Shown piece after piece: positions 12,806 to 49,981 of a DNA stretch of 64,000 bases (positions are counted from its first letter, which is position 1; every line of letters starts with the position of its first letter). Origin of the DNA: an uncultured Oscillospiraceae bacterium (lineage in GTDB: Bacteria; Bacillota; Clostridia; Oscillospirales; Oscillospiraceae); contig CATONV010000004.1 of NCBI GenBank assembly GCA_951801655.1, forward strand, positions 1-64,000. The letters are read 5' to 3'. The position numbers and the translations under genes were made by a program. The notes beneath the pieces were generated by a model. It was not told the origin of the DNA. It made no database searches and saw nothing but the letters and a program-made list of their open reading frames with translations.

Positions 12806-14311
12806 ATGGCAAAAGAGACTTCAACCGCTCAGATTGGGTTTGAGAAGCAAATCTGGGACGCCGCCTGTGTGCTGCGAGGAAACATGGACGCTTCCGAATA
12901 CAAGACAGTAGTTCTGGGCCTAATTTTTTTAAAGTACATCTCAGACCGCTTTGAGGAGAAGCACCAGGCCCTGTTGGAAGAGGGCGAGGGCTTTGAGGAG
13001 GACGTAGACGAGTACACCTCCGAGGGCATCTTCTTTGTCCCTGCCAACGCCCGATGGAATATCATTGCCAAGGCGGCCCATACCCAGTCCATCGGAATTG
13101 CCATTGACGATGCCATGCGGAGTCTTGAAAAGGAAAACCCGCGTCTGAAGGACATCCTCCCCAAGAACTTCGCCCGGCCTGAACTGGACAAGCGGCGGCT
13201 GGGGGATGTGGTGGACCTGTTCACCAACATTCAGATGATCGAGAACGGCAGCGAGAAGGACATTCTGGGCCGAACCTATGAATACTGCCTGTCCAAGTTT
13301 GCCGAGCAGGAGGGCAAGCTGGCCGGGGAGTTCTACACGCCGTCCTGCGTGGTGCGCACGCTGGTGGCGGTTCTCCAGCCCTACCATGGCCGTGTCTACG
13401 ACCCCTGCTGCGGCAGCGGCGGCATGTTTGTCCAGTCGGCCCGGTTTGTGGAGAGTCACACCGGGAACATCAACGACATCTCCGTCTACGGCCAGGACTC
13501 CAACCCCACCACCTGGAAAATGGCCCAGATGAACCTGGCGATCCGGGGCATCGACGCCGACTTGGGCCGCTTCAATGCCGACACCTTCTTCAACGACTGC
13601 CACCCCACCCTGCGGGCCGACTTCGTCATGGCCAATCCCCCCTTTAACCTCTCCGACTGGGGGGCAGACAAGCTGGGGGACGACCCCCGCTGGCAGTACG
13701 GCCTGCCTCCGGCGGGCAACGCCAACTTCGCCTGGCTCCAGCACATGATTTACCATCTGGCCCCCGGCGGGCGGATCGGCATGGTGCTGGCCAACGGCTC
13801 CCTGTCCTCCCAGTCCGGAGGTGAGGGGAAGATTCGGGAAAACATCATCCGGGCCGACCTGGTGGACTGCATCGTCGCCATGCCCACCCAGCTGTTCTAT
13901 ACCACTCAGATCCCGGTCTCCCTGTGGTTCCTCTCCAAGGACAAAAAGCAGAAGGGCAAGACGCTGTTTATTGACGCCCGGAAAATGGGAACTATGGTCT
14001 CCCGCAAGCTGCGGGAGCTGGCCGGGGCGGACATCCAAAAAATCGCGGACACCTACAACGCCTTTGCCGACGGGTCGCTGGAGGATGTGAAGGGCTTCTG
14101 CGCCGTGGTGAATACGGAGGAGATCGCCCGGCAGGACTACATCCTCACCCCGGGACGGTATGTGGGCATCGAGGAGCAGGAGGACGACGGCGAGCCCTTT
14201 GAGGAGAAAATGGGGCGGCTGACGGCGGAGCTGTCGGGGCTGTTTGCCAGGTCCCACGAGCTGGAGAAGGAAATTCGGGAGCGGCTGGGGGAGATTGGGT
14301 ATGAGATATGA
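12806..14311 (+). CDS. hsdM: Type I restriction-modification system, DNA methyltransferase (M) subunit
   Basis: N6-adenine methyltransferase subunit of a type I R-M complex (M2S methylase, R2M2S nuclease). 501 residues. The N-terminal helical HsdM domain ('IWDAACVLRGNMDASEYKTV', 'LIFLKYISDRFEEKH') is followed by 'GEFYTPSCVV', SAM motif I 'VYDPCCGSGGMFVQSA' and the catalytic motif IV 'NPPFNLSDWG' (~276). Length is typical. First gene of hsdM-hsdS-X-hsdR; it overlaps hsdS by 11 bases. GC-rich codon use, unlike the AT-rich hsdS that follows. Confidence 0.97.
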   Translation: MAKETSTAQIGFEKQIWDAACVLRGNMDASEYKTVVLGLIFLKYISDRFEEKHQALLEEGEGFEEDVDEYTSEGIFFVPANARWNIIAKAAHTQSIGIAIDDAMRSLEKENPRLKDILPKNFARPELDKRRLGDVVDLFTNIQMIENGSEKDILGRTYEYCLSKFAEQEGKLAGEFYTPSCVVRTLVAVLQPYHGRVYDPCCGSGGMFVQSARFVESHTGNINDISVYGQDSNPTTWKMAQMNLAIRGIDADLGRFNADTFFNDCHPTLRADFVMANPPFNLSDWGADKLGDDPRWQYGLPPAGNANFAWLQHMIYHLAPGGRIGMVLANGSLSSQSGGEGKIRENIIRADLVDCIVAMPTQLFYTTQIPVSLWFLSKDKKQKGKTLFIDARKMGTMVSRKLRELAGADIQKIADTYNAFADGSLEDVKGFCAVVNTEEIARQDYILTPGRYVGIEEQEDDGEPFEEKMGRLTAELSGLFARSHELEKEIRERLGEIGYEI

Positions 14312-15485
14312 AGTCATTCCCTTCGGAAATTTACTGAAAGAGCCTATTCGTAATGGGCTTACAAAGCCAAAAGCAATTAGAGGACAAGGTGCAAAAATGA
14401 TTGCCATGGGAGAAATTTTTGCGAATTCACGAATTGGCTCTATCAATATGGATAGGGTTCCCGTAACTGATAAAGAGCTTAATAATTGTGGCATAGAAGT
14501 AGGTGATTTGCTTTTTGCAAGGCAATCATTAGTATTGGAAGGCGCAGGGAAGTGTAGTATTATAACAGTAGTGGATGAGCCAACTGTGTTTGAGTCACAT
14601 TTGATAAGGGTAAGAATAGATACATCAAAAGCAAATCCATACTTCTTATATTATTATTTTAATTCCCATCATGGAAAGGAAAATATTAAAACTATTGTGG
14701 AGCAGGTTGCGGCGGCAGGAATTAGAGGCAGCGACTTGATAAGACTAAATGTACCTTGCCCTACTTTGGAGGAGCAAAATCATATAGCAGAAATTCTTAA
14801 TAGATTTGATGATAAAATCGAACTGAACCAGCGGATCAACAAGAATTTGGAGCGGCAGGCGGAGGCAATTTTTGCAGAGCATTTCTTGAATAATTCAGAT
14901 ATTCCCGATGGATGGAGAACAGGAAATCTCCTTGAAATCGCAGACTATTTGAATGGATTAGCAATGCAAAAGTATCGCCCAAAAGATGGAGAAGTTGGTT
15001 TGCCTGTTCTGAAAATCAAGGAGCTCAGACAAGGGGTGTGCGATGATAGCAGTGAGTTGTGCTCACCGAGTATCAAATCAGAATATATCATCCATGACGG
15101 CGATGTTATTTTTTCATGGTCGGGAAGTCTGCTTGTTGATCTCTGGTGCGGCGGGATTTGCGGCTTGAATCAGCATCTTTTCAAAGTTATATCGAAAAAT
15201 TTCGACAAGTGGTTTTATTATAGCTGGACTTTGCACCACCTTAAACGCTTTATCGCTATTGCCGCCGATAAAGCGACAACAATGGGCCATATCAAGCGGG
15301 AAGAATTGGCAAAGGCTGAGGTACTGATTCCGTCGAAATCCGATTATGACAGAATTGGGACAGTTATGGGGCCAATATATGACCTTATAATTGCAAATAG
15401 GCTAGAGAATCGAAAATTGGCAGAAGTTAGGGATAGGTTGTTGCCGAAACTTATGGCTGGGGAGATTGATTTGCCGGGGGATTGA
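14301..15485 (+). CDS. hsdS: Type I restriction-modification system, specificity (S) subunit
   Basis: Determines the bipartite DNA target of the R-M complex. 394 residues with two target-recognition domains (~1-150 and ~205-350). Each is followed by a conserved helical spacer: 'CPTLEEQNHIAEILNRFDDK' plus 'LNQRINKNLERQAEAIF' in the middle, and 'LAEVRDRLLPKLMAGEID' at the C-terminus. The track start (14244) is replaced by ATG 14301, inside the hsdM stop region (ATGAGATATGA overlap), which gives a normal N-terminus. The gene is markedly AT-rich compared with hsdM and hsdR, as expected for a frequently exchanged specificity gene. Confidence 0.94.
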   Translation: MRYEVIPFGNLLKEPIRNGLTKPKAIRGQGAKMIAMGEIFANSRIGSINMDRVPVTDKELNNCGIEVGDLLFARQSLVLEGAGKCSIITVVDEPTVFESHLIRVRIDTSKANPYFLYYYFNSHHGKENIKTIVEQVAAAGIRGSDLIRLNVPCPTLEEQNHIAEILNRFDDKIELNQRINKNLERQAEAIFAEHFLNNSDIPDGWRTGNLLEIADYLNGLAMQKYRPKDGEVGLPVLKIKELRQGVCDDSSELCSPSIKSEYIIHDGDVIFSWSGSLLVDLWCGGICGLNQHLFKVISKNFDKWFYYSWTLHHLKRFIAIAADKATTMGHIKREELAKAEVLIPSKSDYDRIGTVMGPIYDLIIANRLENRKLAEVRDRLLPKLMAGEIDLPGD

Positions 15486-15489
15486 TAAT

Positions 15490-16206
15490 TTGGAAACAGA
15501 AGAAATTATTGTGGCAATTCAAGAAGCCGCAAAGACAATAGCGACACCAAATTGGGCCGATATTTTATCAGTAATAGTCGCATTAGGTGCAGTTGTCGTT
15601 GCAGTTATTATTGCGTTTAAACAAAATAAAATAGCAAAACAGCAAAATGAGCTTGTAAAACAACAGAATGTATTTGCTGAACAGCAAAACCAGATCGTGA
15701 AACAACAGAATGAACTGGCAAAGCAACAAAATAAAATTGCAGAGAAACAGGCAGAAATTGCAAACCAGCAGAATAAAATTGCGTTATTCGGCAAAAGAGT
15801 ACAAGTTTATACTGAGATAGTAAAAATATATAACGTTGTCGAAATTTTAAATTTGACAAATATAAGTTCCTATCCTGCGAGAATGATTTTTAAATTTATA
15901 CAGGAGCAAATGGAATACGAAATTTCAACAGATTTACTTACTAATTTATCTATGTATCATCGTACAATAACAATTCTCAAGCAAGCACCATTCTTTTTCC
16001 CACAAATACCAATACATGATGTTAACAATTTTGGGTTTAATTTTAGTAGTTTGTTTTTTAATCTTAATACAGAATTAATTAATAACCCGGATATCACGAT
16101 GGAACAATTTGAAAATGAAGCAAGACAAAATTTTATTGCATCTGCTGAATCATTTTGTACAAAATATTTGCTATATATTGTAGAATGTTTAAAATTACAG
16201 AGGTAA
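15490..16206 (+). CDS. Membrane-anchored coiled-coil protein inside the type I R-M operon
   Basis: No recognised family. About 238 residues from TTG 15490 (GGGGGA 8 bases upstream; TTG 15466 is the alternative start). A short acidic leader is followed by one membrane helix ('ILSVIVALGAVVVAVIIAF', ~17-36). A ~55-residue polar coiled coil of repeated 'KQQNELxKQQN'-like heptads follows, then a ~140-residue AT-rich-encoded helical C-terminal domain with many Asn, Ile and Phe. It starts 4 bases after hsdS and ends 7 bases before hsdR, so it belongs to the operon. Strongly AT-rich, like hsdS, and probably acquired with it. It may be an accessory defence or anti-restriction factor; function is not established. 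Confidence 0.7.
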   Translation: METEEIIVAIQEAAKTIATPNWADILSVIVALGAVVVAVIIAFKQNKIAKQQNELVKQQNVFAEQQNQIVKQQNELAKQQNKIAEKQAEIANQQNKIALFGKRVQVYTEIVKIYNVVEILNLTNISSYPARMIFKFIQEQMEYEISTDLLTNLSMYHRTITILKQAPFFFPQIPIHDVNNFGFNFSSLFFNLNTELINNPDITMEQFENEARQNFIASAESFCTKYLLYIVECLKLQR

Positions 16207-16213
16207 TTCAATC

Positions 16214-19200
16214 ATGTCCTACACTGAATCAAATTACGAATCCGCCGTCATCGAGCTTTTCGTCCAAATGGGCTACACCCACGTCTATGCCCCCGACCTG
16301 AACCGGGCGGACTGCACCAGTCCTGTGCTGGATGCGGTGCTTCTGGACAGCCTGGTGCGCCTGAACAGGGACCTGCCCCCGGAGGCTATCCAGGAGGCCA
16401 TGGCGAAACTGAAAGATTTTGACAGCGGCAGTCTGGTGCAGAAGAACCGGATTTTCACAGGGTATCTCCAAAACGGCATAGAGGTGAAGTATTTCGCCCA
16501 GGGGGAGGAGCTCTCCGCTCTGGTGCGCCTGGTGGACTACCAGCGCCCGGACAACAACGCCTTCTATGTGGTGAACCAGTATACATACGTGGAAAACGGC
16601 AACACCCGCCGCCCGGACGTGATTTTGTTCCTCAACGGTCTGCCCCTTGTGGTGATGGAGCTGAAAAGCCCCTCCCAGGAGGACGCGGGGGTGGAGAACG
16701 CCTATCACCAGCTTCGCAACTACATGCAGGACATCCCCTCCCTGTTCATTTACAACGCCATCTGCGTCATCAGCGACCTGTCCGCCAGCCGGGCGGGCAC
16801 CATTACCTCCGGCCTGGACCGATTCATGGAGTGGAAGACGAAGGACGGACGCTATGAGAACACCGCCTACGCCCAGTTTGACACCTTCTACGAGGGCATG
16901 TTCCGGCGGGAGAGGCTACTGGACATTTTGAAGAATTTCATCCTGTTTTCCGGCGACACCCAGAAGCCTGTCAAAATTCTGGCTGGGTATCACCAGTACT
17001 TCGCCGTCCGAAAGGCGGTGGACAAGGCGGTGACCGCCACCGCCACCGACGGCAAAGGCGGCGTCTTCTGGCACACCCAGGGCAGCGGCAAGTCGTTGTC
17101 CATGGTCTTCTACACCCATCTTTTGCAGGAGCCGCTGGACAGTCCCACCATCGTGGTCATGACCGACCGCATCGACCTGGATGACCAGCTCTATACTCAG
17201 TTTGCCAGGTGTGCTGAGTTCCTCCGTCAGACACCGGTTCAGGCGGAGAGCAAGGAGCATCTAAAATCTCTGCTGGAGGGCCGGGCGGCCAACGGGATCA
17301 TCTTCACCACCATGTTCAAGTTTGAGAGGGGGGAGACCGCCCTGTCCACCCGGCGGAACATCGTGGTCATGGCGGACGAGGCCCACCGGGGGCAGTACGG
17401 CTTTGACGAAAAAGTGGTCTACAGCGAGAACGGCCAGGGGGAGCAGGAGGCCCATGTGGTGGTAGGCAACGCCCGGATCATCCGGGATGCACTGCCCAAC
17501 GCCACCTTTATCGGCTTCACCGGCACACCGGTGTCCGCCAAAGACCGGAACACCCGGGAGGTGTTCGGGGACTATATCGACATCTACGACATGACCCAGG
17601 CGGTGGAGGACGGCGCCACCCGGCCGGTGTACTACGAAAGCCGAGTCATCCACTTGAAGCTGGACCAGAACACCTTAAATCTCATCGACGCTACTTACGA
17701 TGTTCTGGAGAAGCAGTCCAACGCCGAAACCGTCGAGAAGAGCAAAAAGATGCTGGGGCAGATGGAGAGCGTCCTGGGGGCGGGCTCTACCATCCAGTCC
17801 CTGTGTGAGGACGTTATTGGTCATTATGAGAACTACCGGGCCAGCCTGCTCACGGGAAAGGCCATGATCGTGGCCTACTCCCGGCCCATCGCCATGAAAA
17901 TTTACCGGAAGCTGCTGGAGCTGCGGCCCGGCTGGACGGAGAAAATCGGGGTTGTCATGACCAGCGGCAACAACGACCCGGAGGAATGGAACGAAATCAT
18001 TGGCACGAAGAGACATAAGGAGGAGCTGGCCCGAAAATTCAAGGACAACAGTGACCCCATGAAGATCGCCATTGTGGTGGATATGTGGCTGACGGGATTT
18101 GACGTGCCCTCCCTGGCCACCATGTACGTCTATAAGCCCATGCACGGCTACAATCTGATGCAGGCCATCGCCCGGGTCAACCGGGTGTTTCAGGACAAGG
18201 AAGGCGGCCTGATTGTCGATTATGTAGGCATCGCCTCTGCCCTGAAGGCCGCCATGAACGAGTACACCGAGAGGGACCGGGGCAACTACGGCGATATGAA
18301 TATCGCCCAGACCGCCTACCCCAAATTTCAGGAGAAGCTCCAGGTCTGTAAAGACCTGATGCACGGCTTTGACTTCAGCGGATTTACCATAGGCAGTCCT
18401 CTGGAGATGGCAAGGGCAATTTCCGGCGGTGTCAACTTTGTTTTGGACGCGGCCGCGCCTGACCGCAAAGAGCTGTTCGCAAAGGAGTCTCTGCTGCTCA
18501 AGCAGGCCCACTCCCTCTGCTCCAGCCTGACCACCGCACAGGAGAGGCACGACGCCGCCTACTATGAGGCGGTTCGTTCCGCTGTGGTCAAACTGACAGT
18601 GGGTGGAACCGGAGGCAAAGTGCTGTCCTTGCAGGAGATTAACGCGCAGATCAACAACCTGCTGAAAGCCAGCATTCAGAGTGAGGGCGTCATCAATCTG
18701 TTTGACAGCAAGCGTGTGGGAGAGAAGTTCAATCTATTTGACCCGGACGTGCTGGAAGAGATTGGGAAGATGAAGGAGAAAAACATCGCTGTGGAGATCC
18801 TCCGCAAGCTGATGGCGGAACAAGTGTCCGTCTTCCAGCGGACAAATGTGGTACAGTCACGGAAGTTCTCCGAGAAGATCGCCCGGCTGATGAATTCGTA
18901 TTATAATGGCCTGATTACCAACGAGGAGGTCATCAAGGAGCTGCTGGACACCGCGGCCCAGATTGCGGCGCTGCATCAGCAGGGTGAGGCGCTGGGTCTG
19001 TCTCCGGAGGAGATGGCATTCTATGACGCGCTGACCAAGCCGGAGGCCATCCGAGATTTTTACAAAAATCACCAGTTGGTGGCCATGACCCGGGAATTGA
19101 CAGAGATGCTCCGCAAAAACCGAACCATCGACTGGCAGAGAAAAGAAACTGCCCGAGCCGGAATGAGGAAGATGGTCAAGCGGCTGCTGAGAAAATATGA

Positions 19201-19282
19201 CTATCCGCCCGAGGGCGTGGAGGACGCCATTAACACGGTGATCAGTCAATGCGAGACGTGGACAGACCATGGGATATTATGA
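16214..19282 (+). CDS. hsdR: Type I restriction-modification system, endonuclease/translocase (R) subunit
   Basis: ATP-driven DNA translocase and nuclease of the R-M complex. 1022 residues. An N-terminal PD-(D/E)xK nuclease ('RRPDVILFLNGLPLVVMELKSP', ~133-155) is followed by an SF2 helicase core with Walker A 'TQGSGKSLSM' (~287), motif Ia 'VVMTDRIDLDDQL', the DEAD-type box 'VMADEAHRGQYG', motif III 'FIGFTGTPV' and motif VI 'QAIARVNRVF'. A long helical C-terminal domain contacts HsdM. All catalytic motifs are intact, so the system should restrict. Last gene of the operon; codon use returns to GC-rich. Confidence 0.97.
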   Translation: MSYTESNYESAVIELFVQMGYTHVYAPDLNRADCTSPVLDAVLLDSLVRLNRDLPPEAIQEAMAKLKDFDSGSLVQKNRIFTGYLQNGIEVKYFAQGEELSALVRLVDYQRPDNNAFYVVNQYTYVENGNTRRPDVILFLNGLPLVVMELKSPSQEDAGVENAYHQLRNYMQDIPSLFIYNAICVISDLSASRAGTITSGLDRFMEWKTKDGRYENTAYAQFDTFYEGMFRRERLLDILKNFILFSGDTQKPVKILAGYHQYFAVRKAVDKAVTATATDGKGGVFWHTQGSGKSLSMVFYTHLLQEPLDSPTIVVMTDRIDLDDQLYTQFARCAEFLRQTPVQAESKEHLKSLLEGRAANGIIFTTMFKFERGETALSTRRNIVVMADEAHRGQYGFDEKVVYSENGQGEQEAHVVVGNARIIRDALPNATFIGFTGTPVSAKDRNTREVFGDYIDIYDMTQAVEDGATRPVYYESRVIHLKLDQNTLNLIDATYDVLEKQSNAETVEKSKKMLGQMESVLGAGSTIQSLCEDVIGHYENYRASLLTGKAMIVAYSRPIAMKIYRKLLELRPGWTEKIGVVMTSGNNDPEEWNEIIGTKRHKEELARKFKDNSDPMKIAIVVDMWLTGFDVPSLATMYVYKPMHGYNLMQAIARVNRVFQDKEGGLIVDYVGIASALKAAMNEYTERDRGNYGDMNIAQTAYPKFQEKLQVCKDLMHGFDFSGFTIGSPLEMARAISGGVNFVLDAAAPDRKELFAKESLLLKQAHSLCSSLTTAQERHDAAYYEAVRSAVVKLTVGGTGGKVLSLQEINAQINNLLKASIQSEGVINLFDSKRVGEKFNLFDPDVLEEIGKMKEKNIAVEILRKLMAEQVSVFQRTNVVQSRKFSEKIARLMNSYYNGLITNEEVIKELLDTAAQIAALHQQGEALGLSPEEMAFYDALTKPEAIRDFYKNHQLVAMTRELTEMLRKNRTIDWQRKETARAGMRKMVKRLLRKYDYPPEGVEDAINTVISQCETWTDHGIL

Positions 19283-22519: not shown

Positions 22520-24193
22520 ATGGTAAACAAAACTGGATATCTGCAAAAACTTGATGGAATATTGAACATTATGAGAAAATGCCAGCTGGAGGATGCTGTT
22601 TCAAATGAAATTGAGAAATTAAGGGACGCCATCGACGAATATGCGTTTCGGATTCTGATGATCGGCGGATTCAGCGCGGGGAAAAGCGCATTTTTGAACA
22701 CGCTGCTGAGCCGGGAGACGCTGTTAAAAGAGGATCAGGCGCCTGAGACTACCATCGCAACTGAGCTGGTATATGATGAAGCGGAGTTTATCGAGGCCGT
22801 CAACGCAAAGGGCGAAAAGACGCGCTTTTTGAGCAAGGAGGGAGATTCCCTATCCCCAAAGGACTGGAGATATTTGATTTATCATGTAAACAGTCCCTTT
22901 TTAAAAACTCATCCCAATGTGATCCTGGTGGATATGCCGGGACTGGATTCCAATATTTCCAACCACAACATGGCAATCGCGCAATATATTTCCAAAGGCA
23001 GCGCATACATCCTTCTGGTCAGCTGTGAGGACGGTACCTTGAAGGAATCCACGCGTGATTTTCTTTGGGAGGTCACACAGTATCCCCAGAGTATTACGTG
23101 CTTTGTTTCCAAGTCGGACCTTAAAGTGGATAGGGAGACCGCCGAAGTGGCAGAAACCATTCGAAGTGAGATTGCGGTGGCCTACGGGAGGAGTGTGCCG
23201 GTTTGTAATATTTCGGTTTTCGACGAAGATTTTATAAAAAAGGCGCAGGACGTAATCGAGGCATTTGACGCACAGACCTTATTTGAGGAAAAGTATCGGA
23301 CTGCAATCAATGCGGTCATTTCAACCGGGCAGGCTGCGCTGAGTACCGCTGCCGACGCAATGTTCCTTGACCTGCAGACGATCAACCAGAACATTTCCGC
23401 TTGTACGAAAAATCGGGACAACCTGAAACGGAAACTGGTGCAGGAAAAAGCGGAGCTGGAACGCAAATATAACCGGCAAGTGATCCCGGCCGTTTTAGAG
23501 GACGTTGAAAACGCGCTGCTGGGGCAGACCGGCCGCTTGACGCAGGCCCTCACTATCAGCGGGGAGGCATTTAACGCCTGTGTAAACTCGATCCTTCGTC
23601 CGATCCTTGTAAACTCTGCCCAGCAGCACATTGTCAGCAGCTTTGACGAATATATTGAGCATCTGGATTTGAACAATCTGATGGGAGAGGACAACGAAGC
23701 GGTTCGGCAGTCTATTGCGGACGGGCTTGAGCTTGTCCGTTCTTACGCCCATACGGTTCAGGAAAACGCCCGGAAGGCGGGGCTGCGCCAGGGGCGAGGC
23801 AGGTCTTACGAGCTGATCACAGGCGCCATTGCCATTGCCACAGATTTTGTTTCGCCGATTATCGAGCTTGCAATCGTGTTTTTACCGCTTATTTTTGAGG
23901 TTGCGGCCGGGATAAACCAAAAGTCTCAGTATGAAGATCTGGAGCAAAAGGTACGAAATGTTGTGATTCCGGAAATCGTTTCAAAACTTCAGCCGCAAAT
24001 TACCGCGGCAATCCAGGAGATGAGAGACGCCATGCTGGAAGAACTGCAAGCCAATCTGGATGAGACGATAAACGCCCAGGAAATGGCGCTGCAACAGGCG
24101 CTGGAGAAGAGACAGCAGGCTACAGATGATTTCAACGCAATGCAGGATGAGTGCAGACAGGCCATAAAACGGCTGGAAAGTTTGCGAGAATAA
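22520..24193 (+). CDS. Dynamin-like GTPase 1
   Basis: 557-residue bacterial dynamin family protein, expected to bind GTP and oligomerise on or remodel membranes. G domain: G1 'GGFSAGKSAFLN' (~49-60), switch region 'DQAPETTIATELVY', G3 'LVDMPGLDS', G4 'CFVSKSDL'. A long helical stalk follows, including a predicted coiled coil at ~285-315. A hydrophobic segment near ~445-475 ('VSPIIELAIVFLPLIFEVAA') probably inserts in membrane like a dynamin paddle, and the protein ends in another coiled coil. Good ribosome binding site (GGAGGG). First of four tightly packed genes; 28 bases precede the next start. Confidence 0.88.
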   Translation: MVNKTGYLQKLDGILNIMRKCQLEDAVSNEIEKLRDAIDEYAFRILMIGGFSAGKSAFLNTLLSRETLLKEDQAPETTIATELVYDEAEFIEAVNAKGEKTRFLSKEGDSLSPKDWRYLIYHVNSPFLKTHPNVILVDMPGLDSNISNHNMAIAQYISKGSAYILLVSCEDGTLKESTRDFLWEVTQYPQSITCFVSKSDLKVDRETAEVAETIRSEIAVAYGRSVPVCNISVFDEDFIKKAQDVIEAFDAQTLFEEKYRTAINAVISTGQAALSTAADAMFLDLQTINQNISACTKNRDNLKRKLVQEKAELERKYNRQVIPAVLEDVENALLGQTGRLTQALTISGEAFNACVNSILRPILVNSAQQHIVSSFDEYIEHLDLNNLMGEDNEAVRQSIADGLELVRSYAHTVQENARKAGLRQGRGRSYELITGAIAIATDFVSPIIELAIVFLPLIFEVAAGINQKSQYEDLEQKVRNVVIPEIVSKLQPQITAAIQEMRDAMLEELQANLDETINAQEMALQQALEKRQQATDDFNAMQDECRQAIKRLESLRE

Positions 24194-24221
24194 CGGAAAG
24201 AAATCATTGAGGAGGGCAAGG

Positions 24222-26477
24222 ATGAACACGCAGCGACAAAGGGAGAGAAACAGGCGGTTTGCAGCGGAGATACAAAAAATAAAAGCAGCAATTCAAACGC
24301 AGCAGGGACTAATCGGAGGCGATCCCATTGAGTCCTTTACAGATAGAGTTGAGAGAATTACAAAGTATATGGAAGGAGAGAAGGAGAGAGGGGACAGTCT
24401 CACCATTGGGATCATTGGAACAGTAAAAGCCGGAAAATCCTCTTTGCTGAACGCCCTGGTGTTCAACGGGGAAGAGATTTTACCGAAGGCGCCCGTTCCC
24501 ATGACAGCCGCTCTCACAAAGATAAGCTATGCCGCGGTGCCGCAGGCTACGGTTGTCTTTTATGAACCGTACGACTGGGAAAAGATTGAGGGCCAGGCGA
24601 GAAGATTCAACGAGGCTGTTGAGGAGGAAATGGCGCAGGCCCGTCAGATGGCTCAAATGGATCCGCAGATAACATATTCCGGGGATTTCCTCAGCCGTTC
24701 ATGGGCGGTAAATCGAGTGAAAGCGCATAAAAAAGTGTCAGAGGCGGTGGAAGCCAGCTATGAACTGGTCTCCATGATGGAAAATTGCGACTATAATTTC
24801 CGTGAATTGCTGGGGACAAAGCGGATTATTCCCGGAGATCCCGGCGATGCTCCGGAGGAATATGTAGAGAAACTGGGCGACTATGTAGGGGCCGACGGAA
24901 AGTATACTCCGCTGGTAAACCATATAGAATTACAGATCAACAATCCCCTGGTGCAGGGCTTCGTCATCGTCGACACGCCCGGCCTGAACGATCCGATTGT
25001 TTCCCGCAGCCTGCAAACGAAAAAATATCTGATGGATTGTGACGTGGTGTTTGTGGTCAGTTCGGTGGGGCAGTTTCTGACCAGCCAGGATATGCAGCTG
25101 ATTGAGAAGGATCTGGAGTCTGAAAGTATCTCTCACGCATATATTATCGGATCTCAGCTGGACAGCGGGATCCTGCAATATAACCGGGCGGAAAAGCGGT
25201 TTCAGACGGCTTTCGACCGCAGCATGGAGAACTATGAAAGGCAGGCGGACAAGGCTCTCAGCAGTATGGAGGGAGGGGGGCTGTTTGACAGGCTGAAAAA
25301 GTCTCTCCCGCCCTTGCTTACTTCTGCCATGATGTTCGGGATTGCCCGAAAAATGGAGAGAGGCCAGCCCTTTGACGAGTATGAGGAGCATACGCTGAAA
25401 CAATACAGAGTACGATTTAAAGATTTCGACGAGGTGCTGGAAACGGCAGAAGATTTCTATGTTTTTTCCGGAATCGGAGAGGTGAAGGAGCGCGCCTATG
25501 ATGAGGTGCGGAGAGACAAGGCGGCGATTATCGAAGAAGGTTTGAAAAAATATACCAGCGACCAGTCCGGCGAATTGATCCGGCTTTTGGAGGAGATCAA
25601 TATTACGGCAAAGTCAAACCTGAACGCACTGCGTACCGGCGATGTGGAGAAGCTTGAAAAGAAGCAGGAGGACTTGAAGGAAAAGCTGGATTCCATACGG
25701 CTTGAGGTAAAAAACATCTTTGAAAATCAGGCGGCGTCCTGTAACAGACAGATCCAGAATATCAAGATTGAGATATCAAAAGAGGTCGGCGAGCACACCG
25801 ACCTTGAGATCAAAACGGAACGCGAAAGGAAGACAGATCCAGAAAAATATGGTTTTCTTGGACTGTTCAGAAGGAACCGGGAATTCTATGAGGATAAAAA
25901 GAAAGCCGAGCTGGCACAGACGCTTAAAAATATCCGAGGATATACAACGCGCGCCCAGGAGCTTATCAACAAGAACCTGAAAGAAATTTTTGACGAGGAG
26001 GGTCTTCGGGATAAGCTGAAGCGGTGCGTCATCGGCGCGTTTGATCTGACATCCAAGGAATTCCGGGAAGATGAGATACTGCTTCCCGTTAACACGCTGC
26101 TGGCGCAGCTTACCGTAAAAAAAGTAGACTTTAAAATCATGCACGAGGTACAAGACAGACTATATGGCTCCTTTGCGGATTCAAATGGCGTGGTAGAGGG
26201 CAATGACATCCACAAGCTGCACAAGGTTCAGGAAGAGATCTTGAATGAGATACTGATGCGCTTATCCAAAGCTTTGGACGAGAGCTGCAGTTGGATCGAA
26301 ACACGCATGATTCAGGCGTCCGGAAGCTTTGTGGACGACGTCCAGAAAAAAATCTCAGACAACATTGAGAGAACCAGAATGCAGCTTTCCGACAAGAAGA
26401 AAAACCTGATGCTGTATGAGAATTTTATCGAAGACATTGCCCGGTACAAGGAGACAGTCAGGCAATTGGGGGAGTAA
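24222..26477 (+). CDS. Dynamin-like GTPase 2 (LeoA-like layout)
   Basis: 751-residue dynamin family protein. ATG 24222 is chosen over the track start 24207 because GAGGAGGG precedes it. G1 is 'GTVKAGKSSLLNAL' (~66-79), the switch is 'PVPMTAALTKISY' and G3 'VDTPGLNDPI'. The expected G4 (N/TKxD) reads 'GSQLDSG', so base recognition is non-canonical. The C-terminal ~400 residues are highly charged helices, likely stalk and coiled coil. No clear membrane helix, so membrane contact may come through partner GTPases. It follows GTPase 1 by 28 bases and precedes GTPase 3 by 5. The arrangement resembles the LeoABC cluster of enterotoxigenic E. coli; true orthology is untested. Confidence 0.85.
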   Translation: MNTQRQRERNRRFAAEIQKIKAAIQTQQGLIGGDPIESFTDRVERITKYMEGEKERGDSLTIGIIGTVKAGKSSLLNALVFNGEEILPKAPVPMTAALTKISYAAVPQATVVFYEPYDWEKIEGQARRFNEAVEEEMAQARQMAQMDPQITYSGDFLSRSWAVNRVKAHKKVSEAVEASYELVSMMENCDYNFRELLGTKRIIPGDPGDAPEEYVEKLGDYVGADGKYTPLVNHIELQINNPLVQGFVIVDTPGLNDPIVSRSLQTKKYLMDCDVVFVVSSVGQFLTSQDMQLIEKDLESESISHAYIIGSQLDSGILQYNRAEKRFQTAFDRSMENYERQADKALSSMEGGGLFDRLKKSLPPLLTSAMMFGIARKMERGQPFDEYEEHTLKQYRVRFKDFDEVLETAEDFYVFSGIGEVKERAYDEVRRDKAAIIEEGLKKYTSDQSGELIRLLEEINITAKSNLNALRTGDVEKLEKKQEDLKEKLDSIRLEVKNIFENQAASCNRQIQNIKIEISKEVGEHTDLEIKTERERKTDPEKYGFLGLFRRNREFYEDKKKAELAQTLKNIRGYTTRAQELINKNLKEIFDEEGLRDKLKRCVIGAFDLTSKEFREDEILLPVNTLLAQLTVKKVDFKIMHEVQDRLYGSFADSNGVVEGNDIHKLHKVQEEILNEILMRLSKALDESCSWIETRMIQASGSFVDDVQKKISDNIERTRMQLSDKKKNLMLYENFIEDIARYKETVRQLGE

Positions 26478-26482
26478 GTGAT

Positions 26483-27745
26483 ATGGCGCTGAAACGCAAC
26501 CACGCCGCGGCTGACGCGGGCCCGATCAAGACGGGCAACCCATATCTGGACAAGCCGGAGAAGGGGCTGGCTCTGGTATCCAGTATTATATCAAAGAAGC
26601 CGGGAGAGGCATATTATCAGAAGCAGCGATACCGTCGGGTGGATCATCTGCTGGATCGGAAGCTGCTGTCCTATACACACAGGCTTGAGCTGAACGACGC
26701 ACTGAAGCTGTATTCCGAGCTGGTAATACTCAGCGACCAGCTGCGGTTCCCGTGGAAATATCGGATTTTGCAGGACCGTGCGGTCATTGGCCTGGGCGGG
26801 AAATTCAGTGCGGGAAAGTCCCAGTTTATCAACTCGATTTTAGGCGCCGGTTTTAAGAATCAATTGCCGGTCGACCAGGCCCCGTCCACATCCGTTCCTA
26901 CTTACATCGTCAGCGGGGACAGCAACCAAGTGTTGGCCTATACGAAAAAAGGCGCACAGGTCAAGCTGGACAATTGGGCCCTGGCCGCGATCTCCCATGA
27001 ATTTCAGACTACGTATGGCTTGGGACTTGCGCAGTACATGGATTTCATCGCAGTTTTTGCCGAAGACTTTCAGGACAATATTGCCTTGCTGGACACGCCC
27101 GGCTATAACAAACCCGACGCTTCTCTGGTTGAGGACTACTCCGATTTGCAGCAGGCGTATTCTCAGCTTCAGGCGATTGATTATCTAATTTGGCTGGTTT
27201 CTGTCGAAAACGGCACGCTTACAGACAATGACATCCGGTTTATGGAAAAACTGAATCTTCGCACAAAGATTTTAATTGTTGTGAATAAGTGCGACCTGAA
27301 GACGGAGAGCGAGTCAAGGAGGGTAGCGGAACAGGTAGAGAAGGCCGCGAGGAACGCGGGGCTGCCGATTTTTGATGTGATCCGCTATTCCTCCTTTGAA
27401 CCGGATGAATACCAGGGCGCGGAATATGTAGGGCGGTTTTTTCGCTATGCGCAGAAACGGGAAAGCAAGGCGGAGGATATCCAGCGGCAGTTCCTCAATA
27501 TTTCCAAGAAATTTGAAGGAGCGTTTCAGGCTACCCAAGGGCAGCGAGTGGAGGAGAGGGACGCACTTGGAAAGCTGATTTTTCGGGCAAATAATATCTT
27601 TGAGATATCCGCACTGGTAACCATGTACGGAGATATCAATTCCGATATCGATATTATTCGTAAAAATGAGAAGAAATTCCAGAAAGCAAAAAAAGAAATC
27701 TCAGACAGCATCCGTGACATGTTGCGGGAGGAGAGGTATCGTTGA
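26483..27745 (+). CDS. Dynamin-like GTPase 3 (short)
   Basis: 420 residues, essentially a GTPase domain with short helical flanks. G1 'GGKFSAGKSQFINS' (~109-122), switch 'VDQAPSTSVPTYIV', G3 'LLDTPGYNKPD', G4 'VVNKCDL', all canonical. The N-terminal ~100 residues are basic and helical; the C-terminus ('NEKKFQKAKKEISDSIRD') is a coiled coil. It is too short to carry a full dynamin stalk, so it probably works as a hetero-oligomer with GTPases 1 and 2. It overlaps the next gene by 4 bases, implying translational coupling. Confidence 0.85.
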   Translation: MALKRNHAAADAGPIKTGNPYLDKPEKGLALVSSIISKKPGEAYYQKQRYRRVDHLLDRKLLSYTHRLELNDALKLYSELVILSDQLRFPWKYRILQDRAVIGLGGKFSAGKSQFINSILGAGFKNQLPVDQAPSTSVPTYIVSGDSNQVLAYTKKGAQVKLDNWALAAISHEFQTTYGLGLAQYMDFIAVFAEDFQDNIALLDTPGYNKPDASLVEDYSDLQQAYSQLQAIDYLIWLVSVENGTLTDNDIRFMEKLNLRTKILIVVNKCDLKTESESRRVAEQVEKAARNAGLPIFDVIRYSSFEPDEYQGAEYVGRFFRYAQKRESKAEDIQRQFLNISKKFEGAFQATQGQRVEERDALGKLIFRANNIFEISALVTMYGDINSDIDIIRKNEKKFQKAKKEISDSIRDMLREERYR

Positions 27746-30264
27746 ATGAAAAATTGACTTTTGATGCTCTGGCAAAGGTTTCTTCCGTAGACCGCCAGGC
27801 GGATTCACCGGCGGGCAGGGCGTACGAAAAGCTGTTTGCGGCAATCAACAGCGACAGTAAGCCATTGATCCGCCAGATAGAGGAGAGCGGTTACCCCAGG
27901 AAGAGTGAACTGAAAGACGCATTGGATCAAATTTTAAGTATGGCCGATCTGTTTTTACGGTATCCCTTTTTGACCGGGCGTACGTCAGTTGGGATCGTCA
28001 GCGGAAAATCGCCTGTCGGCCTTCGTGTGTTGGATCAACTCCAAAACAGCGGACGGCGGGCCGCCTACGGAAAACAGTGGGATGTCCCATGCGTTGTATA
28101 TGACAGTATCGTACCTGGGCAGATTATGGCGACAAACCGGGCGGGACAAGTGATGAGGCTGACGCAGGAACAGTTTGGCGAGATTTGCAGCATCTACCGC
28201 CATGACCTCAATGTGCGGGATATGGTCGCCAGTTATGCAATCTCAGCTTCCCTGGGATATCCCAGAATCAATTATGTTCTGTTCCCGCGCTATGCAGACA
28301 AGTCAACCCAGGAATTTGCCAGACTTGCCGAGCTTTGCGACCTGTTTTGCATTATTTATGAAAAAAACAGCGGCACGGAGGGCCTCGCTGACACGATAAA
28401 AAATTCTGCCGCGCCCATATACATCGTTTCCGGCGACAACGCTGAGGCAGAAAACAAATTTCGGATCGATCTTGTGCGTCAGTGTCCGGGCCGGAATATC
28501 CATGTGATTTCCGAGGCGCAGCTGTCCCAGGTTTTAGAGGAGTATGACCATTTCCGGCATAACACTTTTTTGGGCGACCGGTTCCGCGCGGCGCTGCTCC
28601 CCATGCAGGTGTGGCGCTGTTCAGCAATCTGCAAGCATATTACAAATATCAACGCCTTGGCCAAAGACAGCTTGTTTTCCGAAGATATCGGAAGCGAAAT
28701 TGCAAAATTCCGTAAGAATGAGATCGGTTTCAGGGAACGTGAAGAGGAACTGAAGTGTGAATTTGAGCAAAAAATGCAGGAAATTGTTGGCCTTGCGGCG
28801 GAATTTGAAAAATCGTTGCGCGAGATGACGTCCCCAACAGTGGATGAAGACGGCGTGGAAAAACAATTTTCGTTCTATTACGGCGAAACCTGTGGACAAA
28901 TCATCCTGCAGTCTCTGCAATGTGAAGACAACCAGACGGCAGAGTATTATCTTTCCAAACTTAAAAAGGCAAATTGCGATCTGCTGCCGCTGTATCGTCT
29001 CTACTATCATGAGGCGGTGGGAAAGAGTCTTCTGAGAAAAGACCTGGAGTGGCTGCAGTGGCAGGAAGGAACCGATGTTTCGTCACAGGAGATCATTCGG
29101 GGCCTTTTTCATTTCGCCGGAGAGATAAGAATATCAGAAAACGAGAGGTGTAAACTTGCCTACCGTCTCAAGGAACGGTCAGCGGAGGAGGCGTATTATC
29201 ATGCGCAATACGTCGAGAGTAAGGCTGGCGCAGATCGGGCCAGGGCTGATTATGAAAAAGCGTTTGAACTGGGGAGCACCTCAGCCGCAGCGTGGCTGAC
29301 AGAATATTACGAAAACACGCACGACTCCTACCAGGTAAAAAAGCTTGCGGACAGTCTGATCCCCCAGGCCGCTTTCCTCTATGGGAAACAGTGTCTTTCT
29401 CCGTGCGCAGGAGAAAAAGTGCGGTACGCTCAGGGGATCACATACCTCCGGGTGGCGGTTTCCCTAAAATATGTACCGGCAATTTTATATTACGCGGACA
29501 TGTTGTACCTGGAAGTACATGAACAGCGTAACCCTGCAAATATTGACGTCGTGATCAAACTCTACTTGTTTATCTATCAGAACAAGCTGTATGCCGGTGA
29601 TGTGGTCCCGAGAATTGGAATTCTCTACCATATAAAGGAGGACTTCGGAAATGCCAGAAAGTATCTGGAAATGGAGCCGCATTCGGGAGAAGTCTGCTGC
29701 CGTTTGGGATGTATCTACCGTCAAGGCAGCGGCGTTGCAAGAGATTTTGGCAAGGCCCGGCGTTACCTGGAGGAGGCAAAGCGTATGGGCTATTCAGAAG
29801 CGGACGAGCAGCTGCGGCTGCTGAAGCGGCAGGAGTCATATCAAAAAAGTAAAGAAAGATCGGATCATGAAACATACCATCAGGCCGCAGATTATAAAAG
29901 TCAAATTACTTCCGGGTCCACTTCAAGCAGTTGCTTTATCACAACGGCTACCTGTCAGTTCCAGGGAAAGCCAGACGATTGCGAGGAGTTGACCGCATTC
30001 CGCCGCTATCGGGATGAAACGCTGATAAAAACAGAGACCGGGCAGGCCCTGGTCAAGGAATATTATCGAATCGCGCCTAAAATTGTGGAACGGATTGACG
30101 AGGACGATGATTGCGGCAAGATATATCAGTACCTGTATGATAATTTTATCAGGCCCGGGTATCAGCTTCTTTTGGACGGAAGGGGAGAGGAGGCTGCATG
30201 CCTGTATGAGAAAGGCGTCCGGCTTCTGGCCCAAAAATACGCGATAGCGTTTCATGCACTTTGA
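27742..30264 (+). CDS. Pseudo-GTPase / Sel1-TPR-like / CFI-box protein, fourth gene of the dynamin operon
   Basis: 840 residues. TTG 27742 overlaps the previous stop and has GGGAGGAGAG upstream. The N-terminal ~300 residues look like a decayed small-GTPase fold: 'SVGIVSGKSPVGLRVLDQL' where a P-loop would be, later 'LCDLFCIIYEKNSG', without proper G1, G3 or G4. The middle (~380-720) is helical repeats of Sel1/TPR character ('LGCIYRQGSGVARDFGKARR', 'ARRYLEEAKRMGYSEADEQL'). The C-terminal region begins with the CFI-box 'SSCFITTATC' followed by 'LTAFRRYRDETL', a motif seen at the ends of diverse bacterial proteins of unknown role. Likely a scaffold or effector for the three GTPases; function unknown. 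Confidence 0.8.
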   Translation: MNEKLTFDALAKVSSVDRQADSPAGRAYEKLFAAINSDSKPLIRQIEESGYPRKSELKDALDQILSMADLFLRYPFLTGRTSVGIVSGKSPVGLRVLDQLQNSGRRAAYGKQWDVPCVVYDSIVPGQIMATNRAGQVMRLTQEQFGEICSIYRHDLNVRDMVASYAISASLGYPRINYVLFPRYADKSTQEFARLAELCDLFCIIYEKNSGTEGLADTIKNSAAPIYIVSGDNAEAENKFRIDLVRQCPGRNIHVISEAQLSQVLEEYDHFRHNTFLGDRFRAALLPMQVWRCSAICKHITNINALAKDSLFSEDIGSEIAKFRKNEIGFREREEELKCEFEQKMQEIVGLAAEFEKSLREMTSPTVDEDGVEKQFSFYYGETCGQIILQSLQCEDNQTAEYYLSKLKKANCDLLPLYRLYYHEAVGKSLLRKDLEWLQWQEGTDVSSQEIIRGLFHFAGEIRISENERCKLAYRLKERSAEEAYYHAQYVESKAGADRARADYEKAFELGSTSAAAWLTEYYENTHDSYQVKKLADSLIPQAAFLYGKQCLSPCAGEKVRYAQGITYLRVAVSLKYVPAILYYADMLYLEVHEQRNPANIDVVIKLYLFIYQNKLYAGDVVPRIGILYHIKEDFGNARKYLEMEPHSGEVCCRLGCIYRQGSGVARDFGKARRYLEEAKRMGYSEADEQLRLLKRQESYQKSKERSDHETYHQAADYKSQITSGSTSSSCFITTATCQFQGKPDDCEELTAFRRYRDETLIKTETGQALVKEYYRIAPKIVERIDEDDDCGKIYQYLYDNFIRPGYQLLLDGRGEEAACLYEKGVRLLAQKYAIAFHAL

Positions 30265-43658: not shown

Positions 43659-44313
43659 TTAAATATTGGCCAGGCGGATCCCCTGTCGTCCCTTTCCTCG
43701 AACAATCATTTGTTTATCCAACAACTGTTTAATTAGTTTTTCAGCGTTTTTCTGACTTATGTGAATTCCCTCTTCATCCATAAGCGCGATAAGACGACTG
43801 CGCCCTATCCCCCCTTCCGGGTATCGGCCAAGCAGTTCAAGGATTTTTTTCTCCTCCCTGCTTTCCGGGACAATAACTGGTCGCTCAATCATGGTATGGC
43901 CAATTGTCCTAATATTGCCAATCATATCATAGTAAGCAGCTGTATTTTGAAGTTCCCGCACATTTCCTGGCCATGGATATGCAATAAGCTGCCGCTCCTC
44001 TTCCGGAGTCAATTTCTGATTGCGTTTGGAAAATATATAGAACAATGGAATAATATCCTCTTTGCGCATTCTCAATGGTGGGATATCTATCACAAAAGTT
44101 GATAATCGGTAGTATAAATCGGCACGAAATTGATTCTTTTCGATCTGACTCATCAGCTTTTTGTTTGTAGCGGACAAAATACGGATATCAATATTAATGA
44201 TGCGGTCGCTTCCTAATCGCATGATTTTCTTTTCCTGAAGGACCCGCAGTAATTTTGCCTGCAAGAAAAGAGGCATATCACCAATTTCATCCAGAAAAAT
44301 ACTTCCTTTCTTT
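43659..44313 (-). pseudogene. Sigma-54 activator, C-terminal half only
   Basis: The frame encodes the second half of an NtrC-type AAA+ activator. It begins abruptly at 'KKGSIFLDEIGDMPLFLQAK' (Walker B) and runs through 'RADLYYRLSTFVIDIPPLR' and 'YPWPGNVRELQN'. The C-terminal domain reads like a winged helix ('IGRSRLIALMDEEGIHISQ') rather than a Fis HTH. The N-terminal sensor, Walker A and GAFTGA are absent, so it cannot activate sigma-54. The breakpoint joins directly to a truncated HyuB gene at ~44310. The track start ATG at 44276 is internal. Confidence 0.82.
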
Positions 44314-44523
44314 GACCGCTTGGGGCATCACACCCAGATGAAGCGGAACATGCTCCGCTTGAGCCGTCATCATGCCGTCACAGTCATAAATAGAGCAGGA
44401 ACAGTCCCGTCGTTCCTTTACACCGGGGGAGTATGCAGTTCTGACCAAGCTTACTCCCATCTCTTCCGCAATGGAAACGAAGCTGTTCCTCACAACCTCC
44501 AGTGTTGCGGGATCAATACTCAT
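44308..44523 (-). pseudogene. Hydantoinase B/oxoprolinase (HyuB) N-terminal fragment
   Basis: ATG 44523 has GGAGGT upstream. The ~70 residues are a clear HyuB start: 'DPATLEVVRNSFVSIAEEMG', 'VSLVRTAYSPGVKERRDCS', 'QAEHVPLHLGVMPQAVK'. Normal HyuB proteins are over 500 residues. Homology stops at 'AVKE', and a few out-of-frame residues (stop at 44287) follow where the sigma-54 activator fragment begins. A deletion thus removed most of hyuB and the 5' half of the regulator. It was once downstream of the symporter in the same operon. Confidence 0.82.
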
Positions 44524-44631
44524 AATATATACCTCCGTTTGAAATAAGTTTGCCGGGACGACAGTCAGCCGCCCCGGCACTAAGAGGGGTGGTTCAGGCC
44601 TGCCTCAGAGGGAAAAGGCGAGTCGGCGGTA

Positions 44632-46124
44632 TCAATGTCTGCTGTTGTAGGCAATCAGCTCATCCTTCGTCCCATCGCCGAAGAAGGTGTTGACTACCAC
44701 CGCATCTGGAGCTTTTGTCATATAGCTGACCGCAAAAGTCATAGCAGCGCACACAACAACGGCAGGGAAAACAGGAACAACCAGGTCCCAGCCAAACTTC
44801 AACTCCCAAACAAAGGCTGTGATTGCGCCGGTAATCATGCCGCTTAGAACGCCGGCGGCGTTAAGTCGTTTGAAATGGGTACAGCCGCAGACAGAAAAGA
44901 GATAAATTGGAATCAGACAGGACTCCGCGAGAATAATCAAATCCAGCACGCCAAGGCCGGAATACAACGCTGTCAGGATACCTCCTATGCCGATCACAAT
45001 AGTGCTGATCACGCCGGCGTTATATACTTGCCTCTCTCTGTGGCATCCTTTTTGAAAACCCCCTTGTAAATGTCCTCTGAAAAGCAGCTGGATGCCACCA
45101 GAAGTTGAGAGTCGACGGTAGACGTCATGCATGCAAACACCGCGCATAGGGCCAGTCCCCCAAGAACAGGGGGAAAAACATTGCCCACAATGGTGGGGAA
45201 TACCGTTTCCCGGTCCGTAATACCGGGGAACAGCACGAAAGCAGATGTCATAACCAGCGCGATGGAGGTGCAGCCGAATGCATGGCAGGTAACCGCCAGG
45301 GGGAACGCACGCTTGATAACCTGTTCATCCTTACAGGCCAGATAGCGCACAAGCAGCGAGGGCTGTCCCAGCCCAAGACCGATTACCAGATAGACAAACC
45401 AGGATACGATCATAAGCGGCGGGAACTTGGGGGTAACAGCGGCAAACATTTCGGGCGCCTCTTTGGCAATTACCGCATTGACAGCACTGAAGCCTCCGGC
45501 CTTGACCAGCATCACGGGAACCAGAATCAGGAAAATTCCATACATGATAATGCCCTGGAAAAAGTCGTTATAGACAACCGACTTAAATCCGCCCAGCGCG
45601 GTGGCAACCGTCAGAACAACGCCGACAATGACAATACCGGCCCGATATGGAAGACCAAACGCAGCCTGGAATAGCTTGCCCGCCGCCACCAGCTGGGATC
45701 CCATCAGGGGGATGTAGATAATGATTGTAGCTAGAGAAGAAAAGCTCTTGATTCCCTTAGAGTTATAACGGTAGGCCAACAGGTCGGTAATTGTCAACGC
45801 CCCCAGCTTGTCCGTCAGATTGGACAAAGGCCTGGCATAGACCACCCAGGAGAGGATGACGCCAATGGTCATAAACATCATACCATAAATCGCAAACGAC
45901 CAGCCCTGCTGATAAATTTTAGGGCCGCTGCCCATAAACAGGGAGGAACTGACCAGGGTCGCCACAAAGGAGAAGGCAATGGGCCAGGGTCCAATACTGC
46001 GGTCCCCGAGCAAAAAACCTTCCCGGTCCTTGCGCTGCTCTCTATGCTTGACCCAAGCGGATATTCCCAGACAAGACAAAATATAGAAAATAAACACGAT
46101 AACGTATACGGTTGACCTGTTCAT
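44632..46124 (-). pseudogene. Sodium:solute symporter (SSS family), frameshifted
   Basis: Two ORFs (45009-46124 and 44632-45147) together encode one SSS-family permease of ~495 residues. 'MNRSTVYVIVFIFYILSC' starts it, with 'LACKDEQVIKRAFPLAV' and 'CMTSTVDSQLLVASSCFSED' near the end of part one; part two continues 'VYNAGVISTIVIGIGG' after the shift. The frames meet in the alternating tract GAGAGAGG (minus strand, 45031-45040). Removing two bases restores 'DATERQVYNAG'. It is a recent frameshift, a slippage-prone site, or a sequencing error. The small partner gene upstream overlaps its ATG. Confidence 0.85.
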
Positions 46125-46246
46125 CGTTTATCCCCTTTCTTTTTATTGTCAAACAGCTTTCCGGAAAAAGACAGTACCCAGCTTCCAATTACACTGGCCC
46201 AGTAGAAAATCAGCCATACCATAATCCATGCAGGCAAACCGAACAT
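46121..46246 (-). CDS. Small symporter-accessory membrane peptide (41 aa)
   Basis: Not in the ORF track; read by hand from ATG 46246 with GGAGGT 7 bases upstream. One membrane helix ('LPAWIMVWLIFYWASVIGSW') is followed by a basic tail 'KLFDNKKKGDKR'. Its stop overlaps the symporter ATG (ATGA). Such one-helix peptides precede many SSS-family genes and are thought to form part of the permease. Confidence 0.75.
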   Translation of the reverse strand: MFGLPAWIMVWLIFYWASVIGSWVLSFSGKLFDNKKKGDKR

Positions 46247-46297
46247 AAAGATAACCTCCTTACATTAAACTTCAATTACAGTTCTACAGATATGCGG

Positions 46298-46816
46298 TCA
46301 ATTCCCAGCCAATCGCGCCATTTCCTTCAGCTCACTGGTGCTTCTGTATTGGTACATCAATCCCACATGCCAGGGGAAGGTACAGTGATGCCAATAATGA
46401 ATGAGATTGATGTATCGTACATAGGCGCCCATAAGCTCTCTGTACTCCTCTTTTGTCTGGAGTTGGAAGAGAACGGCGTCAATATCTTTGGCAAACTCAT
46501 TGATCTCGGGGGTTGAGACGTAGGAGAGGAATTGCATGGACTGAAATCCAACTGCCAACTCGTTATGCGTCATTTTTTTGAGGGCTTCCAAAGATATCTC
46601 CGGTTCGTCGCACATCTGCACAAACATAAAGAACATGTGCTGACCATAAGCGATTGTATATACGTCAACAAACATCATAGTGGACAGGTACTGATTGAAG
46701 GAACCCGCCCCAGTTACATTGATTCCATGGCGGGTTTTCCACATTGCTTCCGGCTCTTTCAGCCAGTTTTCATCGATCTGTGCGTCAATTTTACGTTTGA
46801 CTTCTTTCCAGTCCAT
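46298..46816 (-). CDS. Helical protein, possibly cucumopine-synthase C-terminal-like
   Basis: 172 residues, all-helical by composition, soluble, rich in aromatic and Met residues ('MFVDVYTIAYGQHMFFMFVQM', 'YINLIHYWHHCTFPWHVGLM'). Not confidently recognised. The pairing with a cyclophilin-like DUF3830-type protein directly upstream recalls cucumopine synthase, which joins a cyclophilin-like domain to a C-terminal helical bundle. If right, the two genes encode a split enzyme. The histidine-rich 'HYWHH' could be a functional site. 14 bases separate it from the upstream gene. Confidence 0.5.
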   Translation of the reverse strand: MDWKEVKRKIDAQIDENWLKEPEAMWKTRHGINVTGAGSFNQYLSTMMFVDVYTIAYGQHMFFMFVQMCDEPEISLEALKKMTHNELAVGFQSMQFLSYVSTPEINEFAKDIDAVLFQLQTKEEYRELMGAYVRYINLIHYWHHCTFPWHVGLMYQYRSTSELKEMARLAGN

Positions 46817-46830
46817 TTCTCAGCCCTCCT

Positions 46831-48831: not shown

Positions 48832-48832
48832 A

Positions 48833-49948: not shown

Positions 49949-49981
49949 AGGCACTCCTCCTCTCTCCCTTGTTTGTGAATC

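Follow-up and report, generated by a model that had tools for sequence, protein, structure and literature searches.

Among the closest described relatives of the operon reported here is the Campylobacter jejuni Cj-DLP1/Cj-DLP2 pair, in which two heterotypic dynamin-like genes lie side by side, an HcpA-like gene is a putative further member of the operon, and GTP turnover requires heterotypic G-dimers (PMC6104087). LeoABC (Eleos) of enterotoxigenic Escherichia coli is likewise a dynamin operon on mobile DNA and is linked to vesicle-associated secretion (PMC4159319). Bacillus subtilis DynA is a bacterial dynamin for which phage resistance through membrane support is reported (PMC8844932), and GTPase-centric conflict systems comprise operons of GTPases, some of them paralogous, together with an adaptor or a variable effector (PMC7159879). 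Here we describe three dynamin-like GTPase genes (D1, D2 and D3) followed by a fourth gene, W4, in a 64,000-nucleotide stretch (the window) of contig CATONV010000004.1 from an uncultured Oscillospiraceae bacterium. Bacterial dynamins are usually discussed as GTPase pairs; in this locus a dead paralogue forms a dedicated subunit beside three intact ones.

The locus differs from each of these systems. Cj-DLP comprises two dynamins rather than three, both of them catalytic, mutation of their P-loops having abolished turnover, and neither a dead G domain fused to the Sel1 protein nor a CFI box is described in the available part of that report (PMC6104087). D1 and D2 resemble LeoA and LeoBC, whereas LeoABC has neither a D3 nor a pseudo-GTPase Sel1/CFI protein; the PADLOC matches reach no more than 44 and 48 bits, which is weak, and with 21.1 bits against a curated cut-off of 325 the LeoA model of NCBIfam is so far from a match that filing the operon as LeoABC/Eleos was rejected. 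DynA is a single protein of two fused dynamins, and the accessible portion of its source does not describe a fourth adaptor protein (PMC8844932), whereas the conflict systems are built on TRAFAC GTPases together with homologues of GAP1, HSP70 and tubulin, dynamin being unmentioned (PMC7159879). The D1-D2-D3-W4 set was not found described in the literature searched, which does not in itself prove novelty; what sets it apart among bacterial heterotypic dynamin operons is a dedicated dead paralogue as the scaffold subunit.

The four genes form a tight operon, a nearly gapless single-strand run from 22520 to 30264 in which W4 is last (Table 1). The W4 open reading frame, which the preliminary description had delimited exactly, comprises 840 stop-free codons; its TTG start overlaps the TGA of gene 3 by 4 nucleotides (TTGA), and a GGGAGGAG-type ribosome site lies immediately 5' of it.

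The N-terminal region of W4 and its relation to D3

On sequence and modelling grounds W4 is a pseudo-GTPase, with gene 3 (D3) as its nearest paralogue, because its N-terminal region combines a D3-type profile and fold with the loss of G1 and G3 in all 15 fourth-gene proteins. A profile built from residues 1–330 of these proteins aligns with the D3 family in hhalign over 318 columns (Prob 99.4, E 5.6e-22, score 165.2), matches the D1 family at E 1.5e-5 and gives no significant match to the D2 family. The alignment with D3 is colinear and includes the hairpin that follows the G2 region. AlphaFold2 returns a beta/alpha model for residues 1–370, with a predicted local distance difference test score (pLDDT) of 82.2 and a predicted template-modelling score (pTM) of 0.78, the values for the whole protein being 83.4 and 0.67. 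With the model of residues 1–370 as query in Foldseek, all 26 PDB matches at E<=1e-3 belong to the dynamin superfamily and span mitofusin, BDLP, IniA, Cj-DLP, SynDLP, Drp1/dynamin, Vps1 and Mgm1.

The catalytic motifs follow a different pattern. Specifically, GxxxxGK[ST] (G1) and D.PG (G3) are absent from 15 of 15 W4 family members, and at the G3 position of W4 the Asp and Gly are gone and Pro182 is retained. The intact D1–D3 proteins of the same operons retain both G1 and G3, several genes being incomplete because a frame interruption splits them or the contig ends within them; the exception is D1 of locus L082, where the search for the G3 pattern gave no match. In the window, D1 carries intact G1 GGFSAGKS and G3 DMPG, D2 carries GTVKAGKS and DTPG, and D3 carries GKFSAGKS, DTPG and the G4 motif NKCD. 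W4 thus lacks the motifs that define an active dynamin GTPase (G1 GxxxxGK[ST], G3 DxxG, G4 [NT]KxD), the window copy being without G4 as well, and its residues 1–330 carry the dynamin-superfamily fold and sequence profile as judged by hhalign and Foldseek.

Single-sequence searches with Pfam, NCBIfam and PADLOC detect no GTPase in W4, and a plain hidden Markov model (HMM) search of PDB with the N-terminal profile finds no dynamin, only chance coiled-coil matches. These negatives would suit a reading in which the dynamin similarity is a low-complexity helix artefact and the G-domain fold is absent, which we regard as extremely improbable. It is opposed by the hhalign controls, in which the reversed profile scores 15.6, the column-permuted profiles reach at most 27.0 (n=100) and the protein middle scores 14.5, and by the beta/alpha model with its exclusively dynamin-superfamily matches and the colinearity with D3. 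The preliminary description had seen in this N-terminus the outline of a GTPase without working G1, G3 and G4, and in the whole protein a catalytically dead paralogue combined with a scaffold and a Cys box. Both statements are borne out by the profiles, the fold and the motifs of the 15 homologues (G4 from the window copy), which add gene 3 as the closest paralogue; modelling gives a dynamin-type fold rather than an unrelated one.

Table 1. Features of the operon, of W4 and of related loci (window positions unless a locus is named)
Feature	Position	Strand	Evidence
Gene 1 (D1), 557-aa (amino acid) dynamin-like GTPase	22520..24193	+	Pfam Dynamin_N 4.4e-17; PADLOC LeoA 4e-12
Gene 2 (D2), 756-aa dynamin-like GTPase	24207..26477	+	Pfam Dynamin_N 1.6e-22; PADLOC LeoBC 2.3e-13
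Gene 3 (D3), 420-aa dynamin-like GTPase	26483..27745	+	Pfam Dynamin_N 1.3e-10; motifs; hhalign against gene 4 N-terminus
Gene 4 (W4), 840 aa, predicted pseudo-dynamin N-terminus, helical/Sel1 repeats, CFI box	27742..30264	+	Open reading frame, profiles, models
W4 residues 1–330, predicted decayed D3-type G domain and helical neck	27742..28731	+	hhalign with controls; AlphaFold2, Foldseek
W4 residues 87–93, SGKSPVG, G1/P-loop remnant (D3: GKFSAGKS), no usable GK[ST]	28000..28020	+	Alignment
W4 residues 179–184, VLFPRY at G3 position (D3: LLDTPGY)	28276..28293	+	Alignments
W4 residues 230–233, SGDN at G4 position (D3: NKCD)	28429..28440	+	Alignment
W4 residues 378–690, predicted alpha-solenoid	28873..29811	+	AlphaFold2 secondary structure; Pfam Sel1; Foldseek
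W4 residues 711–730, disordered Ser/Thr/Tyr-containing linker preceding CFI box	29872..29931	+	pLDDT <50; alignment
W4 residues 731–802, CFI_box_CTERM (CFITTATC ... DDC ... FRRYRD ... EYYRIAP)	29932..30147	+	NCBIfam NF041770
Type I restriction-modification neighbours: hsdM, hsdS, 246-aa coiled-coil gene, hsdR	12806..19282	+	PADLOC; context only
D3-Sel1 fusions	L064:7782-9866; L087:7839-9896; L069:7950-9812; L059:7290-9869; L104:13829-16300		

The solenoid and the C-terminal module of W4

The middle of W4 is modelled as a Sel1/TPR-like solenoid, in agreement with the earlier proposal of such repeats. The helical model matches the solved Sel1-repeat proteins 8sxq and 6deh in Foldseek, and Pfam recognises one Sel1 repeat at residues 652–684 (E 1.5e-5, 25.8 bits), below its curated cut-off of 30.7. 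HcpA-type proteins are also Sel1-repeat proteins. In addition, five loci (Table 1) encode a D3-type GTPase that retains G1 and G3 and is itself fused to C-terminal Sel1 repeats; these fusions possibly represent intermediates towards W4 or its ancestral form. W4 itself is kept in different phyla.

The C-terminal CFI box, which the preliminary description had picked out from CFITTATC and FRRYRDETL, matches NF041770, whose cut-off is 40 bits, at 64.2 bits over positions 1–68 of 69, which places W4 in that family, and a genome profile search returns the box at the same coordinates. Residues C731, F732, T735, A736, R757, E773, Y774, Y775 and P779 are invariant in 11 of 11 CFI-bearing homologues. 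As a small conserved element the box therefore stands; conservation of all its cysteines does not, since only C731 of the three is invariant and the remaining two vary. CFI-box proteins also adjoin dynamins elsewhere, as had been anticipated (at least 14 four-gene loci, with the box in ten besides the window), whereas searching with the box itself reveals a general module that is not specific to dynamins. It occurs in 15 of 300 genomes of the phylum sample (12 above cut-off), and it was rejected as a dynamin-specific marker, since of the 33 loci that the box retrieved in the family and phylum samples none adjoins the three dynamins; the lone D3-type match among them, in L140, is distant and weak. 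Residues 731–802 of W4 are a full match to the CFI_box_CTERM family, and the three-dynamin context is one special setting for it, other carriers being proteins of about 310 aa, large proteins with a CFIATA-type box, and a protein linked to VWA and PP2C genes. No paper on the CFI box was found in the literature searched; this named domain here gains a defined molecular setting.

Two groups of CFI carriers can be noted in their own right. A common family of about 310 aa in the host's taxonomic family (L122-L138) ends in CFI boxes that are about 40–49% identical to the window box and lies far from dynamins, and on a Lysinibacillus plasmid (L034:5742-10086) genes for a VWA-domain protein and a PP2C phosphatase come directly after that of a CFI-box protein, a further setting of signalling type for the box.

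Among the four-gene loci the C-terminal module is exchangeable: the CFI box is present in 11 loci (the window and ten others), absent from L082 and replaced in L047 and L060, because of which it is probably not the defining part of W4. In the latter two, both rumen loci (L047:9290-15011 and L060:13405-19217), W4 ends instead in a Tyr/Ser-rich tail with a terminal Gly-Trp, and four overlapping genes follow, encoding an isoprenoid-synthase-like protein (a weak PF00348 call, confined to L060), a radical SAM enzyme, an uncharacterised protein and a U32 protein resembling UbiU/TrhP. These genes look like a putative tail-modification cassette. From these two loci (n=2) one could read the W4 C-terminus as a slot for a modifiable tail, either a CFI box or a Tyr/Ser tail with its cassette, whose modification, possibly lipid-like or resembling that of ribosomally synthesised and post-translationally modified peptides, would arm or anchor the dynamins; we regard this as a tentative and rather improbable extension. 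Of 399 phylum genomes, 7 encode distant relatives of the uncharacterised cassette protein.

The same exchangeability bears on whether W4 is an effector, in which case the dynamins would provide a GTP switch and the active payload would be the C-terminal module. Swapping of the module among these loci, the termination of unrelated proteins by the CFI box (one of them with VWA and PP2C neighbours) and the precedent of GTPase-centred conflict systems with variable effectors (PMC7159879) speak for such a payload. Against it, the CFI box shows no match to any recognised catalytic family and, being helical and 72 residues long, would make a small enzyme; what all W4 members have in common is the solenoid and the pseudo-G domain. 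We judge the effector role unlikely.

Distribution, genomic context and proposed role of the four-gene set

Homologues were collected by scanning 84,980 genomes with a gene 2 profile, which yielded at least 80 loci, and by reading the neighbouring open reading frames. The D1-D2-D3-W4 order recurs in at least 14 loci besides the window, for example L042, L043, L044, L046, L047, L048, L050, L051, L053, L060, L061 and L082 and the cut-off L049, in E. coli plasmids, Clostridia, Lachnospiraceae, Veillonella, Synergistales, and Limosilactobacillus and Ligilactobacillus (Lactobacillaceae). Ten Escherichia plasmid records carry gene 4, one being from E. albertii, and so do 5 of 5426 complete E. coli genomes, plasmid-borne in all; compared gene by gene, window and E. 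coli proteins are 22–34% identical, the value varying with the alignment used. Across 12 loci the four proteins show correlated pairwise distances (r 0.80–0.91, Mantel p 0.0005), the pattern expected of genes that travel together. Among 399 phylum genomes, and likewise among 394 order genomes, a single one carries a full-length W4 homologue, in both cases the window's own. A lineage-specific gene was rejected, W4 being nearly absent from the host order and phylum yet found in distant phyla, and so was a viral origin, two scans of viral contigs giving no relative and a phage collection a single CFI-box match. The four-gene set is probably a travelling, mobile unit across distant bacteria. In one E. 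coli plasmid record (CP148558.1, L033:7317-13191) genes 2 and 4 are fragmented by frame interruptions; other E. coli records have intact versions, and on plasmid NZ_CP148279.1 the intact operon spans 44300-51888.

WYL-domain genes lie directly upstream in 9 of 42 three-dynamin loci, a raw count without a matched control, and about half of the BrxR-family WYL regulators that have been identified lie together with defence systems (PMC9122601). A defence role of the operon is suggested by plasmid carriage, patchiness, the upstream WYL genes, the type I restriction-modification genes beside the window operon and a Zorya-like EH-signature gene beside the Pseudomonas aeruginosa plasmid copy. The set would probably serve as a mobile membrane-response system, acting in stress or against phage, this being the least certain step. 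The resemblance of D1 to LeoA and of D2 to LeoBC in PADLOC profiles, together with the vesicle-associated secretion already cited for LeoABC, would also accommodate a vesicle or envelope-maintenance machine, comparable to LeoABC-like secretion or IniA-like envelope stress and without a part in defence, for which W4 would recruit cargo. The rare, patchy, plasmid-borne spread and the frequent upstream WYL genes fit accessory defence better than housekeeping, and such a maintenance role appears doubtful. As a separate observation, the Pseudomonas aeruginosa plasmid NZ_CP133095.1 (L039:2976-12130) carries a WYL regulator and then three dynamins, adjoined by an EH-signature (Zorya-like) gene and a helicase.

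Taking these data together, we think it rather probable that W4 is the pseudo-GTPase adaptor of a three-dynamin membrane machine, and it probably tells the dynamins when and where to act. D1 residues 447–465 are strongly hydrophobic (hydropathy 2.33), a stretch found in no other subunit, and hydropathy exceeds 2.0 in 7 of 7 D1 proteins checked; this is likely a membrane-inserting paddle, and because only D1 possesses it, insertion would fall to D1, with D1 and D2 together remodelling the membrane. By analogy with the Campylobacter heterotypic G-dimers, the dead G domain of W4 may pair with an active dynamin G domain, that of its paralogue D3 first, and this pairing would set or cap assembly without GTP hydrolysis by W4. 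The solenoid would hold a partner, sensor or cargo, and the C-terminal module, whether CFI box or Tyr/Ser tail, would localise or deploy the complex. The preliminary description had left W4 as adaptor or effector of the three GTPases; that assignment agrees with operon conservation, with the correlation of protein distances and with the loss of catalytic motifs. Sequence and models show the architecture; the function is what we infer from them.

Several points weigh against the adaptor model and its defence setting. The Foldseek TM-scores (template-modelling scores) are low, about 0.2–0.37, and motif loss may leave room for unusual nucleotide binding in W4. Many D1-D2-D3 loci have no gene 4, which indicates that the dynamins can work without W4. 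WYL genes apart, PADLOC counts in the flanks of four-gene loci are not clearly above the control set, and interaction, localisation or phenotype data for the W4 family were not found. Regulation of heterotypic dynamin assemblies without catalysis becomes testable, and the compact E. coli plasmid copy could open the system to study in a K-12 laboratory strain.

Other layouts and neighbouring genes

On a Moraxella osloensis plasmid (L040:5611-10589), a separate protein of 317 aa that weakly resembles the pseudo-G domain adjoins a D3-type GTPase whose extension comprises about 1000 residues, with helical repeats and a hydrophobic segment; the modules seem reshuffled. A second layout, D1-D3-x-y-D2, is widespread in Lachnospiraceae and others (L068, L074, L081, L086, L102, L120 and similar), and several of these loci carry a downstream protein of about 1060 aa. 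The x and y genes form their own family without P-loops. The intervening genes of other layouts were considered as candidate pseudo-dynamins; the answer is no for the main 43-member cluster and a weak yes for the one Moraxella protein.

Upstream of the window operon, PADLOC assigns the type I restriction-modification genes as MTase_I (2e-205), Specificity_I (2e-72) and REase_I (1e-303). Between hsdS and hsdR, at 15466-16206, the 246-aa protein carries repeated QQN(E/K)-type heptads.

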